Below, one piece after another: positions 6,192 through 16,494 of a stretch of DNA of 38,085 nt (the stretch's first letter is position 1; each line of letters opens with the position of its first letter). This stretch comes from Chloroflexota bacterium (GTDB taxonomy: Bacteria; Chloroflexota; Anaerolineae; UBA1429). The notes beneath the pieces were generated by a model. It did not search any database and had not been told where the DNA came from. It saw only the letters and a list, made by a program, of their open reading frames with translations. A program made the position numbers and the translations under genes. The stretch covers positions 1 to 38,085 of the forward strand of contig JAAYAW010000056.1 of NCBI GenBank assembly GCA_012719135.1, given 5' to 3'.

Positions 6192-6956
6192 ATGCATCGC
6201 TTTTTCGTGCCGGCCGAGACGATGCAGAGCAAAGCTGTGCTGCTCGCAGGCGACCTGGCACACCAGCTGAGCCGCGTCCTGAGGCTGCGCGCCGGGGACC
6301 AAATTGAGCTGCTTGACAACAGCGGGAGGGCCTGGCTCGCGCGGCTGGACGAGGTGAGTCCCCGGTGCTGCCGAGCGACTACGCTGGCCTGCTATCGTCC
6401 CTCTACCGAATGCCGGACTCGGTTCGTCCTCTACCAAGGCCTGCCTCGCGGGCACAAGTTCGACCTCATCCTTCAAAAAGCCACAGAGCTCGGGGCGAGC
6501 CGGATCGTTCCGGTGAGGGCTGCCAGGTCCATCCAGATGGCGGCTGAGGAAGCTACGCCGGCCAGAGCCAGGCGCTGGGAGCGCATCATTCAGGAGGCGG
6601 CCGAGCAATCAGGCCGCGCGCTGATGCCCGCGCTCTCGGAGGCGATCTCACTGCCTGCGGCCATCGACGAGATAGAGGAGGGCGATCTGTGCCTGGCCGG
6701 TGCCCCGGGGGAGAGGGCCACGCCGATCCGCCATGTGCTCGAGCGCATCCCTCAGGCTCCAACGAGCGTGCGGCTGTTCGTGGGGCCGGAAGGCGGCTTG
6801 GACGATGCGGAGCTCGGTTCGCTCCAAGCGGCAGGCGTCTCGCTGGTATCGCTGGGTCCCCGTGTGTTGCGGACAGAGACAGCCGGGCTGGTGATGCTGG
6901 CACTGGCGAGCTACGCCCTGGGGGAGATGGAATTGCCGGGCGAACATGGTTTCTGA
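6192..6956 (+). CDS. rsmE: 16S rRNA (uracil(1498)-N3)-methyltransferase RsmE
   Basis: SPOUT-class enzyme that methylates U1498 in the decoding region of 16S rRNA. The 254-aa protein begins MHRFFV, has a PUA-like RNA-binding N domain with HQLSRVLRLRAGD, and then the knotted SAM domain: QGLPRGHKFDLILQKATELG (82-101), GPEGG (198-202) and LGPRVLRTETA. ATG 6192 is preferred over the in-frame 6144 because the extra 16 residues would lie inside prmA and MHRFF is the usual N terminus. It ends within the next gene's first codons. Confidence 0.93.
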   Translation: MHRFFVPAETMQSKAVLLAGDLAHQLSRVLRLRAGDQIELLDNSGRAWLARLDEVSPRCCRATTLACYRPSTECRTRFVLYQGLPRGHKFDLILQKATELGASRIVPVRAARSIQMAAEEATPARARRWERIIQEAAEQSGRALMPALSEAISLPAAIDEIEEGDLCLAGAPGERATPIRHVLERIPQAPTSVRLFVGPEGGLDDAELGSLQAAGVSLVSLGPRVLRTETAGLVMLALASYALGEMELPGEHGF

Positions 6957-7809
6957 GATGAAGAACGGCTCGGGGAGGCGGTTCGCACATGCTCTCCTGG
7001 TGCTCATCGTATTCTTTGGTCTTGCGACTGTGTGCTATGGATTGCAGCAACTGCCTGTCATCGAGACGGTCGGGGTGGGCGAGCCCGCGGGTCTCTCGAC
7101 CGGTGGGATCACCATCGTCCAGCTGAGCGACTTGCACGTGACCGGCAGGGCGGATGTGTGGCGGTTGCGATACGCTCTGCGCCTCATCGAGCGGACGGAC
7201 CCCGATCTGATCGTGCTGACCGGCGATTTCGTGCGTGGGAGCGCCGCAGGCATCGACCTGGCCCTTCCCGTGCTCCGGACTCTGGAGGCTCCTCTCGGGG
7301 TGTATGCGGTGCTGGGCAACCACGATCTGTGGAGTGATCGTGAGGCCGTGGCTCGCGGCCTGGCGGAGGCCGGGATCGATCTGCTTGTGAACCGCGGCCT
7401 CGCGATCGAGCAGGGAGAGGCGCGGTTCTACCTCGCCGGCCTGGACGACGCCTGGAGTGGGCGGCCCGACCTGGATGCTGCTACGGCGGGCAACACCGGG
7501 CATCTGCCGGTAGTCGTCTTGCTCCACGAGCCCGATCTGGGGCAGGAGATCCTCCGCTCCGGCCGGGCCTGGCTGTTGCTGTCCGGCCACTCGCATGGGG
7601 GCCAGGTTCGGTTGCCTGGCATCGGCGCGATCATACTGCCGGAACATGGGCGCGAGTATGATCAGGGGCTCTATGGTGTCGGCGAGGGCTGGCTGTACGT
7701 CAACCGCGGGCTGGGCACTGCCGCGATACCGGTGCGACTCGGCTGCCGGCCCGAGGTGACCGTGCTTGAGGTGTACCCGCCGCAGGTGCTGAAGGTGAGG
7801 GCTCCGTGA
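6946..7809 (+). CDS. Membrane-anchored metallophosphoesterase (YkuE-like)
   Basis: Calcineurin-type phosphoesterase, 287 aa. A hydrophobic segment at about 14-32 looks like an uncleaved anchor, placing the enzyme outside the membrane. The dinuclear-metal motifs are complete: D62 and H64 in SDLHV, GD at 93-94, GNHD at 124-127, a further His in LLHEPD and GHSHGG at 214-219. The subgroup includes Bacillus YkuE and LpxG/LpxH-like enzymes; the substrate cannot be told. ATG 6946 overlaps the rsmE stop by 11 bases; ATG 6958 is an alternative. The stop overlaps the GTG of the next gene, so this is the same transcription unit. Confidence 0.85.
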   Translation: MVSEMKNGSGRRFAHALLVLIVFFGLATVCYGLQQLPVIETVGVGEPAGLSTGGITIVQLSDLHVTGRADVWRLRYALRLIERTDPDLIVLTGDFVRGSAAGIDLALPVLRTLEAPLGVYAVLGNHDLWSDREAVARGLAEAGIDLLVNRGLAIEQGEARFYLAGLDDAWSGRPDLDAATAGNTGHLPVVVLLHEPDLGQEILRSGRAWLLLSGHSHGGQVRLPGIGAIILPEHGREYDQGLYGVGEGWLYVNRGLGTAAIPVRLGCRPEVTVLEVYPPQVLKVRAP

Positions 7810-8513
7810 CGGACGGTCGCCAGTCTACAGCCGATCCGCACATCGGCCGGCTCAATGAGCGTTCGCTGCATGCCGCCCTGAAGGAGTGGTGCCGGCTGCC
7901 GGGCGACGCGCTCGAGACGGTGGTGGACGGATACGTCGTGGACGTGGTGCGCGACGGGCTGCTGATCGAGGTGCAGACCGCGGGGATCGGCGCGATAAAG
8001 GCCAAGCTCGAAAGCCTCGCTCAGAGACACGCTGTGCGGGTGGTGTATCCGATCATCTCCCAGAAGATGATCCAGACCATCGCGCCGGATGATGGGCGCG
8101 TGCTCCGGAGACGCCGGTCGCCGGCCAGGCTGGTGTGGGCCAATGTCTTTGACGAACTGGTCTACTGTCCGACGCTGCTGGATACCCCGCAACTGGACAT
8201 GCTGGCCGTCCGGGTGGCCGTTACCGAACTGCGGTGTGATGACGGCCAGGGCGCCTGGAGGCGGAGGCGGGTGAGCATCCGCGATACCCTGCTCGACGAG
8301 GTGCTGGAAAGCCGGGTGTTTTCCTCCGGCGGCCAACTGGCAGAGCTGTTGCCGGAGGACCTCACGGGAGCGTTCACGCATCGGGAGATGGCCACGGCCA
8401 TGGGGATAGCGATGCGAACGGCACAGCGGGCCTCCTATTGCCTTCGGAAACTCGGGCTGTTGCGCGTTGTGGGGAGACGCGGGCGCGAGATGCTCGTAGA
8501 GCGCGCCGGCTGA
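7806..8513 (+). CDS. Nuclease-like (PD-(D/E)XK-type) protein with C-terminal winged helix
   Basis: Function unknown, 235 aa. Residues 35-75 read ETVVDGYVVDVVRDGLLIEVQT followed by IKAKLESL across two strands and a helix. E37, D46 and E55-x-Q57 fit the E...D...(D/E)xK pattern of restriction-endonuclease-like folds, with Gln replacing Lys. Residues about 185-230 (FTHREMATAMGIAMRTAQRASYCLRKLGLL) look like a winged helix. I recall similar hypothetical proteins in other bacteria but no tested function. The GTG start at 7806 overlaps the preceding stop (GTGA), which supports translation coupled to the phosphoesterase. A nuclease or a DNA-binding regulator is possible; the fold assignment is by eye. 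Confidence 0.8.
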   Translation: MTDGRQSTADPHIGRLNERSLHAALKEWCRLPGDALETVVDGYVVDVVRDGLLIEVQTAGIGAIKAKLESLAQRHAVRVVYPIISQKMIQTIAPDDGRVLRRRRSPARLVWANVFDELVYCPTLLDTPQLDMLAVRVAVTELRCDDGQGAWRRRRVSIRDTLLDEVLESRVFSSGGQLAELLPEDLTGAFTHREMATAMGIAMRTAQRASYCLRKLGLLRVVGRRGREMLVERAG

Positions 8514-8623: not shown

Positions 8624-9382
8624 ATGGCCACACTTTCCGATGGACGCCCCCTGCCGGGCCGCCTGTTCGTGGTCGAGGGCATCGATGGTTCTGGCAAGAG
8701 CACGCAGCTGGACCTCCTTCACAAGTGGCTGACCTCTCTGGGTTACGTCGTGGCCTTTAGCGAATGGAACTCCTCGCCCGTGGTGCGCAAGACGACCAAG
8801 GTGGGGAAGAAAAAGCAGTTGCTCACCCCGACGAGTTTCAGCCTCATCCACGCGGTGGACTTTGCGGACCGATACCAGCAGCAGATCGAGCCGGCGCTCA
8901 AGGCGGGCGCGATCGTTCTGGCGGATCGCTACATCTACACCGCCTTTGCGCGCGACGTTGCCCGTGGCGTCAATCGGGACTGGGTGCGCAAGGTCTACTC
9001 CTTTGCCGCGAACCCCTCTGTAGCGCTGTATTTCCGCGTGCCGTTGGATGAATCCTTGCGACGGATCATCACCGGAAGGCCGAATCTCAAGTTCTACGAG
9101 GCAGGGTTGGATTTAGGGCTATCGGACGATCCGCTTGAGAGCTACCGGATCTTCCAGGGGCGCATCCTTCGCGAGTACGAGCGGCTGGTCGAGGAGTACC
9201 GGCTGGCCGTCATCGATGCAAGCCTGCCTCTGGTGGAACAGCAGGAGGTGGTTCGGGAGATCATCCGGCCGCATCTGGAGGGGGCGCTGATGGCTGAATC
9301 GAACCCCTGGCGTAAGGTCCTGGCTGCGGAGGGACTGTCCGGGCGGTATCTGGACAGCCTGGCACGAACGGGGGAGCGTTAA
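8624..9382 (+). CDS. Thymidylate-kinase-like protein, first of a tandem pair
   Basis: P-loop nucleoside-monophosphate kinase fold, 252 aa. The Walker A loop GIDGSGKST is at 19-27, and the DR of the dTMP-kinase signature is at 101-102 (ADRYIYT). It differs from canonical Tmk by a basic segment TTKVGKKKQ near 57-65, a conserved-looking GRPNLKFYEAGLDLGLS where a lid would be, and a C-terminal extension of about 40 residues. So it may phosphorylate something other than dTMP, or may be a regulatory relative. It is followed after one base by a paralogue; both open with MATL. I would not assign the symbol tmk. Confidence 0.85.
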   Translation: MATLSDGRPLPGRLFVVEGIDGSGKSTQLDLLHKWLTSLGYVVAFSEWNSSPVVRKTTKVGKKKQLLTPTSFSLIHAVDFADRYQQQIEPALKAGAIVLADRYIYTAFARDVARGVNRDWVRKVYSFAANPSVALYFRVPLDESLRRIITGRPNLKFYEAGLDLGLSDDPLESYRIFQGRILREYERLVEEYRLAVIDASLPLVEQQEVVREIIRPHLEGALMAESNPWRKVLAAEGLSGRYLDSLARTGER

Positions 9383-9383
9383 G

Positions 9384-10097
9384 ATGGCCACACTCAGGTT
9401 CTACGGAGAAGGCCTGCCGGCCGCTGAGAATCTCGACGCGGGGGGCAAACTGATCGTGTTGGAGGGACCCGATGGCGTCGGGCGCTCCACGCAGGTAGCG
9501 CTGCTCCGTGAGTGGCTGGAGGCCGCCGGGTACGCCGTGTTTTCCAGTGGGTTCAAGCGATCGGAACTGGCAAGCCAGGGGATCGAGGCCGCCAAGCGGG
9601 GCCACACGATGGGAAATCTCACGATGGCGCTCTTTTACGCCGCGGACCTGGCGGACCGGCTGGAGCGTGAGATCATCCCGATGCTCAAGGCCGGCTTTGT
9701 GGTCCTCACGGACCGCTACATCTACTCGATGATGGCCCGGGCGCGCGTGCGCGGAACCGATAGCGAGTGGCTCAGGTCGCTGTTGGGCTTTGCGGTGATC
9801 CCGGACCGCATCCTCTACCTGAAGGCCGATGTTCGCAGCCTGCTTCCTCGGGTGCTCAGCTCGCGCGGCTTTGACTATTGGGAGTCCGGGATGGACTATT
9901 TGGGGTACTCGGACTATTACGCGAGCTACCTTGAGCACCAGGAGCGGATGCATCGCGAGTTGGACGCGATGAGCGAGGAGTATGGTTTCTACACCATCGA
10001 GGCATCGCAGCCGATCGATCGCGTCTTTGCTGATCTGAAGCGAGCGGTGGAAGAGGTCGTTCAGGACCTCAAGCCGGCACGCCTCGCGATGCCATAG
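9384..10097 (+). CDS. Thymidylate-kinase-like protein with altered P-loop, second of the pair
   Basis: Paralogue of the upstream gene, 237 aa. The fold signatures are visible: GPDGVGRSTQ at 28-37, FYAADLADRLE, and TDRYIYSMMARA with DR at 110-111. The invariant Walker A lysine is replaced by Arg (R34). DYWESGMDYLGYSDYY occupies the place of GRPNLKFYEAGLDLGLS in the first protein. The start lies one base after the previous stop, with GGGGGAG just upstream, so the two are co-translated and may act as a complex in which this subunit is catalytically weak or regulatory. That role is inference; the substitution is seen directly. Confidence 0.85.
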   Translation: MATLRFYGEGLPAAENLDAGGKLIVLEGPDGVGRSTQVALLREWLEAAGYAVFSSGFKRSELASQGIEAAKRGHTMGNLTMALFYAADLADRLEREIIPMLKAGFVVLTDRYIYSMMARARVRGTDSEWLRSLLGFAVIPDRILYLKADVRSLLPRVLSSRGFDYWESGMDYLGYSDYYASYLEHQERMHRELDAMSEEYGFYTIEASQPIDRVFADLKRAVEEVVQDLKPARLAMP

Positions 10098-14140: not shown

Positions 14141-14794
14141 CTACTCCTCGGATTCCTCTCCGGGAGCTTCAGCCTGAGCCTCAACCTCGCCCTCGATCAT
14201 CTCCTCAGCGCCTTCAGCCTCTTCCTCTTCCTCGGCGGCTCGAGGCGCCAGGACGCGGGCCACCACGGCCTCGGCATCGATAAGGGCGGTGACGCCCTCA
14301 GGAAGGGACAGATCGCTCACATAGATCACCGAATCCATCTCGGTGAGAGCGGATAGATCCACGACGATCTGCTCAGGAAGGTCGGCGGGCAGGCACTCGA
14401 TCTCGAGTTCGTTGAGGAGCAGGCTCACCACGCCGCCTTCTTCAGTAGCGGGGGCTTCGCCGTGCGCACGCACAGGCACTGCCGTGGTGATCGCCTGGCC
14501 GGCCACGATGCGATAGAGATCGATGTGGAGCAGACTGCCGGTCACCGGATGGCGCTGTACGGCTCGCACCAGCACCGTCTCACTCAGACTGCGGTCTGAT
14601 ACGGAGAGCGAAAAGAGTCGCGTGGTGCCGACTGTGTTCAGGACTCTGCTGAGGGCGCGCTCCGGGATCTGCAGAGCCACGGAATCGAACTGGTTTCCGT
14701 AGAGCACGCCGGGCACAAAGCCCTCGCGGCGCAACGCCCGCGGCGTGCTCTGGGTATCGCGCGACTGCGCCTCAAGCGTCAGTGTCTGTGCCAT
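14141..14794 (-). CDS. rplY: 50S ribosomal protein L25 / general stress protein Ctc
   Basis: The 217-aa protein is the long (TL5/Ctc) form: an N-terminal 5S-rRNA-binding L25 domain (about 5-95, with LRREGFVPGVLYG and ETVLVRAVQRHPVTGSLLHIDLYRI), a C-terminal TL5 beta domain (about 100-185, VPVRAHGEAPATEEGGVV, IVVDLSALTEMDSVIYVSDL) and an acidic Glu-rich tail (about 188-217). AAGGA lies 9 bases before the ATG. It is transcribed from its own consensus promoter at 14931-14958 through a leader of roughly 130 bases. Ctc-type proteins are stress-linked in Gram-positives, but nothing here shows that directly. Confidence 0.94.
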   Translation of the reverse strand: MAQTLTLEAQSRDTQSTPRALRREGFVPGVLYGNQFDSVALQIPERALSRVLNTVGTTRLFSLSVSDRSLSETVLVRAVQRHPVTGSLLHIDLYRIVAGQAITTAVPVRAHGEAPATEEGGVVSLLLNELEIECLPADLPEQIVVDLSALTEMDSVIYVSDLSLPEGVTALIDAEAVVARVLAPRAAEEEEEAEGAEEMIEGEVEAQAEAPGEESEE

Positions 14795-14930: not shown

Positions 14931-14958
14931 ATTATAGAGCCTGCTTTGTGGGTGTCAA
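14931..14958 (-). promoter_or_regulatory. Consensus promoter of the L25 gene
   Basis: Minus strand: perfect TTGACA (14953-14958), 16-base spacer, perfect TATAAT (14931-14936). It lies between the end of the HEPN-motif gene and the L25 leader. Confidence 0.9.
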
Positions 14959-14973
14959 ATAACGGGGCGCGTC

Positions 14974-16017
14974 TTAGGACGACACCGAGCGGGCACCGGA
15001 TGCGCCACGCTGGTTGCGCTGGCGCACCCTGCGCAGCCAGTCCAGCAGGCTCCGTGTGGTCCGCAGAGCCTGCTGAGCCTGCCGATAGCTGGGCCGGAGG
15101 CCCCGGTGGACTGTATCATTGCGGAGCTCATTCAGCTCACCAAAGGCCTGCCAGAGGGTCCGGTTGTCGTTGCGGAGGCTAAAGCCGCAATAGGTTCCCA
15201 TCAACGCAGCGAGCTTGGACGTGAGGCTGCGGGTAGAGAGCATGTGGTCGATCTGGTCATCATCGAGACCTCGGCGGAGCATGCCCTCCGTCAATAGGGC
15301 GGAGGCTGCGGCCTCTATCGTGGTGTGGCAGCTGGCGATAGTCTGGCGGGGAAACCGCTGGAACAGGGCGCGCTCTGCCTCAATCAGAAGCTCGTCAGCC
15401 AGTTCCACCGGCCTTTGTTCGCGCATGGCGCGATCCAGATCGCGATACCAGGCGCTGCTCTGGCCAACCAGGTCGAATATCTCAGCGCGGGCCTCCTCTT
15501 CCCGGATGAGCTGATCCTGCAGGGGGTCCTCGACCAGGACTGTGCCATCGTCAGCGCGTACGGTGAGATCGATATCATCACGGCGCAGATCGAAGAGGTG
15601 ATACAGCTTGGCTTTGCGGCGGATGACGGCGACCAGGTTGTTGAGGGCCTCGAGCGCCTCTATCGCAAACCGATCGCGCGCGGCGTGCAGTTGCTCTGGC
15701 GCAGCGAGATCTAGATCCTCGGGGAGACGACGTACGACCGTAGCGCCGGAGTTGATCGATCCCAAGGCCGCGCGATTCTCGCCAAAGAGCACCCGGAGGA
15801 CAAAGGGGTGGTCATACCAGGTGTAGGCGGTGGTGGAAGCCTGACCCTCGTCGAGAGCGCTGGCGTCCACCGGTTCTCCCTCGGTACTGACGGAGATCAG
15901 GGGGTTGAACCGCCGCTCAGAGATGTGGATGGTGAGAGGACCCGATTCGGTTGTTACGGTGTAGGAGCGCTCACGTACACCAAAGGGAAGGCTCGCGAAG
16001 GCTACCAGCAGGGTCAT
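14974..16017 (-). CDS. Hypothetical protein with a C-terminal HEPN-type motif
   Basis: Not a named family to me, 347 aa. The first 110 residues look beta-rich; about 110-215 is charged and helical. The C-terminal 150 residues form a helical bundle with ELLIEAERALFQRF, TTIEAAASALL and NELRNDTVHRG. RNDTVH (299-304) fits the RN-x3-H catalytic motif of HEPN ribonucleases and the surrounding pattern resembles Apea-like HEPN domains. A very basic tail (RRVRQRNQRG) follows. The ATG is preceded by AAGGAG. It lies 39 bases downstream of the arfB-like gene on the same strand. An RNase role is inference from the motif. Confidence 0.85.
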   Translation of the reverse strand: MTLLVAFASLPFGVRERSYTVTTESGPLTIHISERRFNPLISVSTEGEPVDASALDEGQASTTAYTWYDHPFVLRVLFGENRAALGSINSGATVVRRLPEDLDLAAPEQLHAARDRFAIEALEALNNLVAVIRRKAKLYHLFDLRRDDIDLTVRADDGTVLVEDPLQDQLIREEEARAEIFDLVGQSSAWYRDLDRAMREQRPVELADELLIEAERALFQRFPRQTIASCHTTIEAAASALLTEGMLRRGLDDDQIDHMLSTRSLTSKLAALMGTYCGFSLRNDNRTLWQAFGELNELRNDTVHRGLRPSYRQAQQALRTTRSLLDWLRRVRQRNQRGASGARSVSS

Positions 16018-16056
16018 CGGTCACTCCTTCATGGGGCCAGGCGCGTTGGGTTACGG

Positions 16057-16494
16057 CTACCAGTCATCGGGCGCCGGGGCTCGGCGGCGGCGCTTGGTCT
16101 CGCTGCGGCGCGCCTTGGAACGGCGGCGCCTCTGTTTTTCGCCGCGGGATGGGCGTGTCCGCAGGCGTGTTCGGCGGGGCCGGAGGGCCTGTGCCAGCAG
16201 CTCCGACAGCCGCGCGAGTGCATCCGCGCGGTTTTGCCACTGGCTGGCGCTGGTCTGCGAGATCAGGTGGAGCACACCCTGGCGGTCGATCAGCCCGGCT
16301 AGCCGGCTGCAGATGAGGGCCTTCTGGACCTCATCGAGGCTGGGCGAGTTGGCCACGTCGAGCAAGAGCTCGACTCGTGTCGCGGTCTTGTTCACGTTCT
16401 GGCCGCCGGGCCCGCTGGAGCGCGTGAACTGCCAGCGGATCTCTGCGAGAGGGATGTTGGTGTCCGTGTCTACTTGAATTCCGGCCGAGTTCAC
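16057..16494 (-). CDS. arfB: ArfB-type peptidyl-tRNA hydrolase (class I release factor domain)
   Basis: ArfB (YaeJ/ICT1) frees ribosomes stalled at the 3' end of broken mRNAs by hydrolysing peptidyl-tRNA. The 145-aa protein has the catalytic loop FTRSSGPGGQNVNKTATRVEL with GGQ at 30-32, followed by the conserved QNRADALARL region and a long basic tail (RPSRGEKQRRRRSKARRSETKRRRR over about 110-138) that binds the empty mRNA channel. The frame is open far upstream but only this part looks like protein. The GTG at 16494 gives the family's length and N terminus; no strong ribosome site is visible, so the start is less sure. Confidence 0.9.
   Translation of the reverse strand: MNSAGIQVDTDTNIPLAEIRWQFTRSSGPGGQNVNKTATRVELLLDVANSPSLDEVQKALICSRLAGLIDRQGVLHLISQTSASQWQNRADALARLSELLAQALRPRRTRLRTRPSRGEKQRRRRSKARRSETKRRRRAPAPDDW

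Follow-up and report, generated by a model that had tools for sequence, protein, structure and literature searches.

The window, which is the whole stretch of 38,085 nucleotides analysed here, is one contig of a 2.64 Mb genome of the Chloroflexota (Anaerolineae). On its reverse strand, a gene encoding a 347-aa protein lies between arfB and rplY, with the following features:

14141..14794, reverse strand: rplY/ctc (bL25), downstream of the HEPN gene; TIGR00731, 124 bits (cut-off 73.1)
14931..14958, reverse strand: promoter-like TTGACA-16-TATAAT in the HEPN–rplY gap; perfect 12-of-12 sigma-70-type consensus
14974..16017, reverse strand: gene of the predicted HEPN-fold protein, 347 aa; open reading frame, homologues in 14/15 family genomes
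15010..15426, reverse strand: predicted HEPN domain, residues about 198–336; AlphaFold2 model; 2hsb matched at Z 13.9 in VIA-align
15106..15123, reverse strand: RNDTVH motif, residues 299–304, read from the sequence; R, N and H invariant
15487..16017, reverse strand: predicted beta-rich N-terminal domain, residues 1–177, no fold match; model pLDDT 82.8 (residues 1–200), best Z 3.9
16024..16029, reverse strand: AAGGAG, Shine-Dalgarno-like, 6 bases 5′ of the HEPN ATG; read from the sequence
16057..16494, reverse strand: arfB, with GPGGQ motif and basic C-terminal tail; PF00472; NF006718, 132.8 bits (cut-off 100)

An earlier note on this DNA had described a 347-aa protein with an RNDTVH motif, encoded 39 bases downstream of arfB; the open reading frame, the position of the motif, the gap and the common strand all agree with that description. 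The naming of the upstream gene also holds, since its score passes the NCBIfam cut-off for ArfB, and the GPGGQ motif and an Arg/Lys-rich C-terminal tail can be read in its product. PrfH was considered as the identity of this gene and set aside (TIGR03072, 30.4 bits against a cut-off of 166.65). Elsewhere in the window, on the forward strand, two tandem ORFs one base apart (8624–9382 and 9384–10097) both start like thymidylate kinases, with a P-loop nucleotide-binding motif near the start, a name given by eye.

Fold and motif of the HEPN-like protein

The AlphaFold2 model of the protein is moderate overall (pLDDT 71.6, pTM 0.49), and its C-terminal helices are better modelled. In VIA-align the best match was 2hsb, with Z 13.9, rmsd 3.0 and 122 aligned positions over residues 198–336, a score that should be read with the warning that helical bundles may reach Z of about 13 by chance. 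The next matches (Z 13.3, 13.2 and 12.8) were HEPN or HEPN-like entries over residues ~198–336. Among the best 22 rows, with Z from 13.9 to 7.9 and mostly spanning residues ~200–336, eight are titled HEPN, five Csm6 and one MntA-HepT; six have uninformative titles, and the other two are 3c8g and 5yep (SO_3166), which we take to be a HEPN toxin. The first of these two belongs to the MtlR-family HEPN proteins in the available part of PMC3710099. The top rows were consistently HEPN proteins and spanned one whole domain. Foldseek gave probabilities of 0.94–1.0 for the best HEPN entries, with all HEPN chains at E >0.03 and none at E ≤0.001.

Sequence profiles gave weak but concordant matches. Pfam searches of 12 homologues found DUF4145 in ten, HEPN_RiboL-PSP in nine and HEPN in six, and the isolated domain matched HEPN in 11 of 16 sequences (best E 8.1e-6). 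The full-length window protein had no Pfam family above cut-off, with only DUF4209 listed (12.1 bits); its HEPN domain alone scored 14.4 bits for HEPN, below the cut-off of 22, and the curated cut-offs of PF13643 (DUF4145), PF18735 (HEPN_RiboL-PSP) and PF05168 (HEPN) were not reached by the window protein. Against the PDB, the whole-family profile found no chain at E 1, and the HEPN-domain profile gave a best E of 0.53, with annexins first and ApeA third. NCBIfam offered nothing useful for the homologues, one of which matched the diol dehydratase small subunit at E 0.037. The earlier note had proposed a HEPN domain in this region, and structure prediction bears it out through the matches to solved HEPN proteins described above. 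The models thus support a HEPN four-helix fold for the C-terminal domain.

The motif on its own is weak evidence, because RN...H also arises in 2.5% of 20,000 shuffles of the window protein; its conservation is more informative. R299, N300 and H304 are invariant in 12/12 full-length homologues (45–61% identity to the window protein), and the same three residues are the sole invariant columns of 16 HEPN-domain sequences, a set that adds to the twelve one truncated homologue and three relatives at 20–22% identity, which were recruited via the same protein or profile and are not a fully independent sample. The earlier note had named loss of these residues in homologues as grounds for giving up the HEPN assignment, and they are kept throughout (12/12 homologues, 16/16 domain rows). 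Judged from these alignments, the conservation of the motif is not due to chance. The basic tail described by the earlier note has fared less well: the last 17 residues contain four R, and most homologues terminate at RNK or RNR, mostly without the tail.

The N-terminal part (residues 1–200) was also modelled alone, with pLDDT 82.8. This model had no match at E ≤0.001 in Foldseek searches of PDB and BFVD, and its best VIA-align Z was only 3.9. The predicted N-terminal domain therefore has a fold that is unrecognised among the solved structures searched, which does not by itself prove a new fold.

Distribution and gene neighbourhood

The HEPN gene is present as one copy per genome in 14 of the 15 genomes of its Chloroflexota (Anaerolineae) family (handles G000 to G014), and is absent from G011. 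In the same class outside the family, a weak match was found in 1 of 45 genomes; a phylum sample of 400 genomes, which included G000 and G010, gave weak matches in two further genomes. These weak matches outside the family fall in the C-terminal part. A scan of genome contigs returned 12 loci, all from Chloroflexi, Anaerolineae or Anaerolineales and from the same genomes as the family set, and those relatives of the protein that have names come from Chloroflexi/Anaerolineae MAGs. Phage and plasmid collections gave no tblastn match at E 0.01, and no relative was found in viral contigs. A mobile or defence gene was rejected on these grounds, together with the single copy family-wide; the best reading is a chromosomal, vertically inherited and lineage-specific gene.

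A survey of the neighbourhood of the homologues showed that arfB immediately precedes the HEPN gene, in the same orientation, in 10 of the 13 testable genomes of the family (G000, G001, G003, G004, G005, G006, G008, G009, G013 and G014), with gaps of 5–132 bases. Testable genomes are those with readable sequence 5′ of the HEPN gene; G012, where the gene is cut by a contig end and its upstream side is unreadable, and G011 fall outside the 13. The count includes G014 on the last ArfB residues alone (RPPSRDEW at the contig edge, resembling the end of the G004 ArfB) and G001, whose HEPN gene is truncated by a contig end. In G009 the 5-base gap depends on the start chosen by us, and it becomes 71 if the start is set where the alignment begins. 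In G002, ArfB is encoded 6.5 kb from the HEPN gene on the opposite strand; G011 has ArfB; and G007, G010 and G012 keep the HEPN gene with no ArfB found in the genome. The completeness of the latter three is 95, 99 and 95%, respectively (G007 with 9% contamination), so that the absence of ArfB is likely, not certain. Among ArfB loci outside the family, 0/19 had a related HEPN gene in the flanking 1.5 kb, or as far as the contig reached. In G002 and G010 (L038 and L040, about 6600–8000), the HEPN gene stands directly after a transporter-like gene, in L040 with a one-base overlap as called.

The flanks of the pair are variable. The gene before arfB is common to G000 and G004, and to G001, G003 and G008, and is otherwise different, giving at least five kinds of upstream gene; a divergent gene before arfB is common to 2/9 genomes, and rplY lies 3′ of HEPN in 6/9 readable pair-bearing genomes. 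An inositol-phosphate-synthase-like gene is beside arfB in G013 and G002 (names by eye). The HEPN protein tree, which is midpoint-rooted and has several poorly resolved forks, separates G002 and G010 from the other genomes and places G007 beside the pair-bearing G005. Since all pair-bearing genomes fall outside the G002/G010 part, the pairing may go back to a single ancestral event and, from these placements, is probably old and was then probably lost in G007. The earlier note had raised the idea of RNA cleavage and rescue linked in one unit: the conserved pair with differing flanks stands in favour of gene linkage with arfB, but the linkage is not obligatory, as the other arrangements in G002, G007, G010, G011 and G012 indicate.

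No promoter-like site was found in the 39-base gap between arfB and HEPN in the window, and six of the gaps in the family measure 5–49 bases, which leaves little space for a separate promoter. In the longer gaps of G004, G013 and G014, 9-of-12 promoter-like sites precede the HEPN gene, which may therefore be transcribed alone there. From the gap lengths and sites, co-transcription of arfB and HEPN is plausible in most, but not all, genomes. The HEPN–rplY gap contains 11-of-12 sites in 4/5 other genomes with rplY in this position, which suggests that rplY is a separate transcript; with a perfect or 11-of-12 site in 5/6 genomes, rplY as third operon gene was discarded from the main reading. In G006, the arfB–HEPN gap (L035, 1285–1333) contains GGTTACCTCAG...CTGAGGTAACC, an inverted repeat that might act as an operator or attenuator.

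Possible role in RNA cleavage and ribosome rescue

We tentatively propose, as the best reading although one that is possible rather than probable, a vertically inherited two-domain HEPN endoribonuclease with ArfB as a facultative partner, in which catalysis, substrate, dimer and functional link are all predicted. The C-terminal four-helix domain would dimerise and cleave RNA via R299, N300 and H304, and the conserved N-terminal domain would pick the substrate or gate the activity. The HEPN gene, 3′ of arfB in most of the family, may often be close enough for one transcript. Cleavage of translated RNA would strand ribosomes without a stop codon, and these would be cleared by ArfB, or by tmRNA where ArfB is missing; we infer that the genes are paired because HEPN cuts would leave such ribosomes for ArfB. 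tmRNA was found above cut-off in 11/15 family genomes, including G000, G007, G010 and G012. The genomes in which no ArfB was found thus have a second means of ribosome rescue, a finding that agrees with ArfB as a facultative partner without proving that it is one.

It is somewhat unlikely that only gene order is inherited and that the HEPN RNase acts in an unrelated pathway, e.g. stress RNA turnover. One ancestral pairing fits the tree, three genomes have promoter-like sites of their own before the gene, and HEPN is kept in other contexts in G002, G007 and G010. On the other hand, gene order decays on both sides (upstream gene 2/9, rplY 6/9) while the pair holds in 10/13.

Defence genes are usually patchy in their spread; the HEPN gene occurs as one copy each in 14/15 family genomes and was not found in the phage, viral and plasmid collections searched. 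In this light it is improbable that the protein is an anti-phage effector of abortive infection, similar to ApeA/Abi, whose N-terminal domain senses phages, although HEPN domains are common in defence, at least in the part of PMC3710099 available, weak PADLOC and HEPN_Apea matches occur, and 9hxi, an ApeA chain, can be aligned with it at the motif (E 0.67); the best PADLOC match reaches only E 0.0016. A non-catalytic RNA-binding HEPN regulator is quite improbable: many MtlR members are among the HEPN families that lack the motif and may bind RNA (PMC3710099, in the same part), but no other residues of the domain are conserved as strongly as R, N and H, a pattern that is difficult to account for unless the protein is catalytic. 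A dedicated unit, in which HEPN cuts ribosome-bound mRNA and ArfB is the obligate partner, would account for a pair kept in 10/13 genomes amid differing flanks and for the six short gaps, but is highly improbable: three genomes that are 95–99% complete keep HEPN with no ArfB detected, G011 has ArfB but not HEPN, the two genes lie apart in G002, and there is no HEPN of the family at the 19 non-family ArfB loci.

The reading of an endoribonuclease with a facultative ArfB partner may be taken further, to a version that we regard as unlikely: a lineage-specific, non-mobile HEPN RNase with a new sensor domain would cut ribosome-engaged RNA in normal translation quality control, ArfB would release the ribosomes, and tmRNA would substitute where ArfB was lost. 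If true, this would be an endogenous cut-then-rescue module. Most known HEPN proteins belong to toxin, defence or CRISPR systems; a near-universal HEPN of a family, kept beside a rescue factor, would be a candidate for a housekeeping RNase in translation, and the arfB–HEPN pair may offer a simple two-gene test bench for coupling RNA cleavage to ribosome rescue. The literature searched contained no paper joining HEPN with ArfB or YaeJ; in the available part of PMC11090510, the overlap of HEPN and ribosome rescue concerns SmpB-like domains in CoCoNuT systems.

Comparison with known systems

The HEPN domain of the window protein resembles solved toxins of HEPN-MNT toxin-antitoxin systems (6m6w, 7ae6 and 8xeh), whereas its adjacent genes encode ArfB and bL25 and no MNT nucleotidyltransferase antitoxin, and a HEPN-MNT pair was therefore rejected. 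ApeA has likewise an N-terminal region and a C-terminal RN-x3-H motif (RNLIVH in 9hxi), but the match is weak, and the window gene occurs across its family and in none of the phage and plasmid records searched; in Pfam searches of the 12 homologues there was no ApeA N-terminal model at E 1 or better, and HEPN_Apea was weak in 2/12. In the superfamily, the DUF4145 and RiboL-PSP-HEPN-like proteins differ from the window protein, which falls below their Pfam cut-offs and has an N-terminal domain without solved-fold match, but share with it the predicted fold, the RNxxxH motif and weak profile matches. Finally, the rtcB2-prfH operon, as described in the available part of PMC9223846, has an RNA ligase as partner where the window has a predicted RNase, and the upstream gene of the window is below the PrfH cut-off; the two loci are alike in pairing a release-factor homologue with an RNA-acting enzyme.
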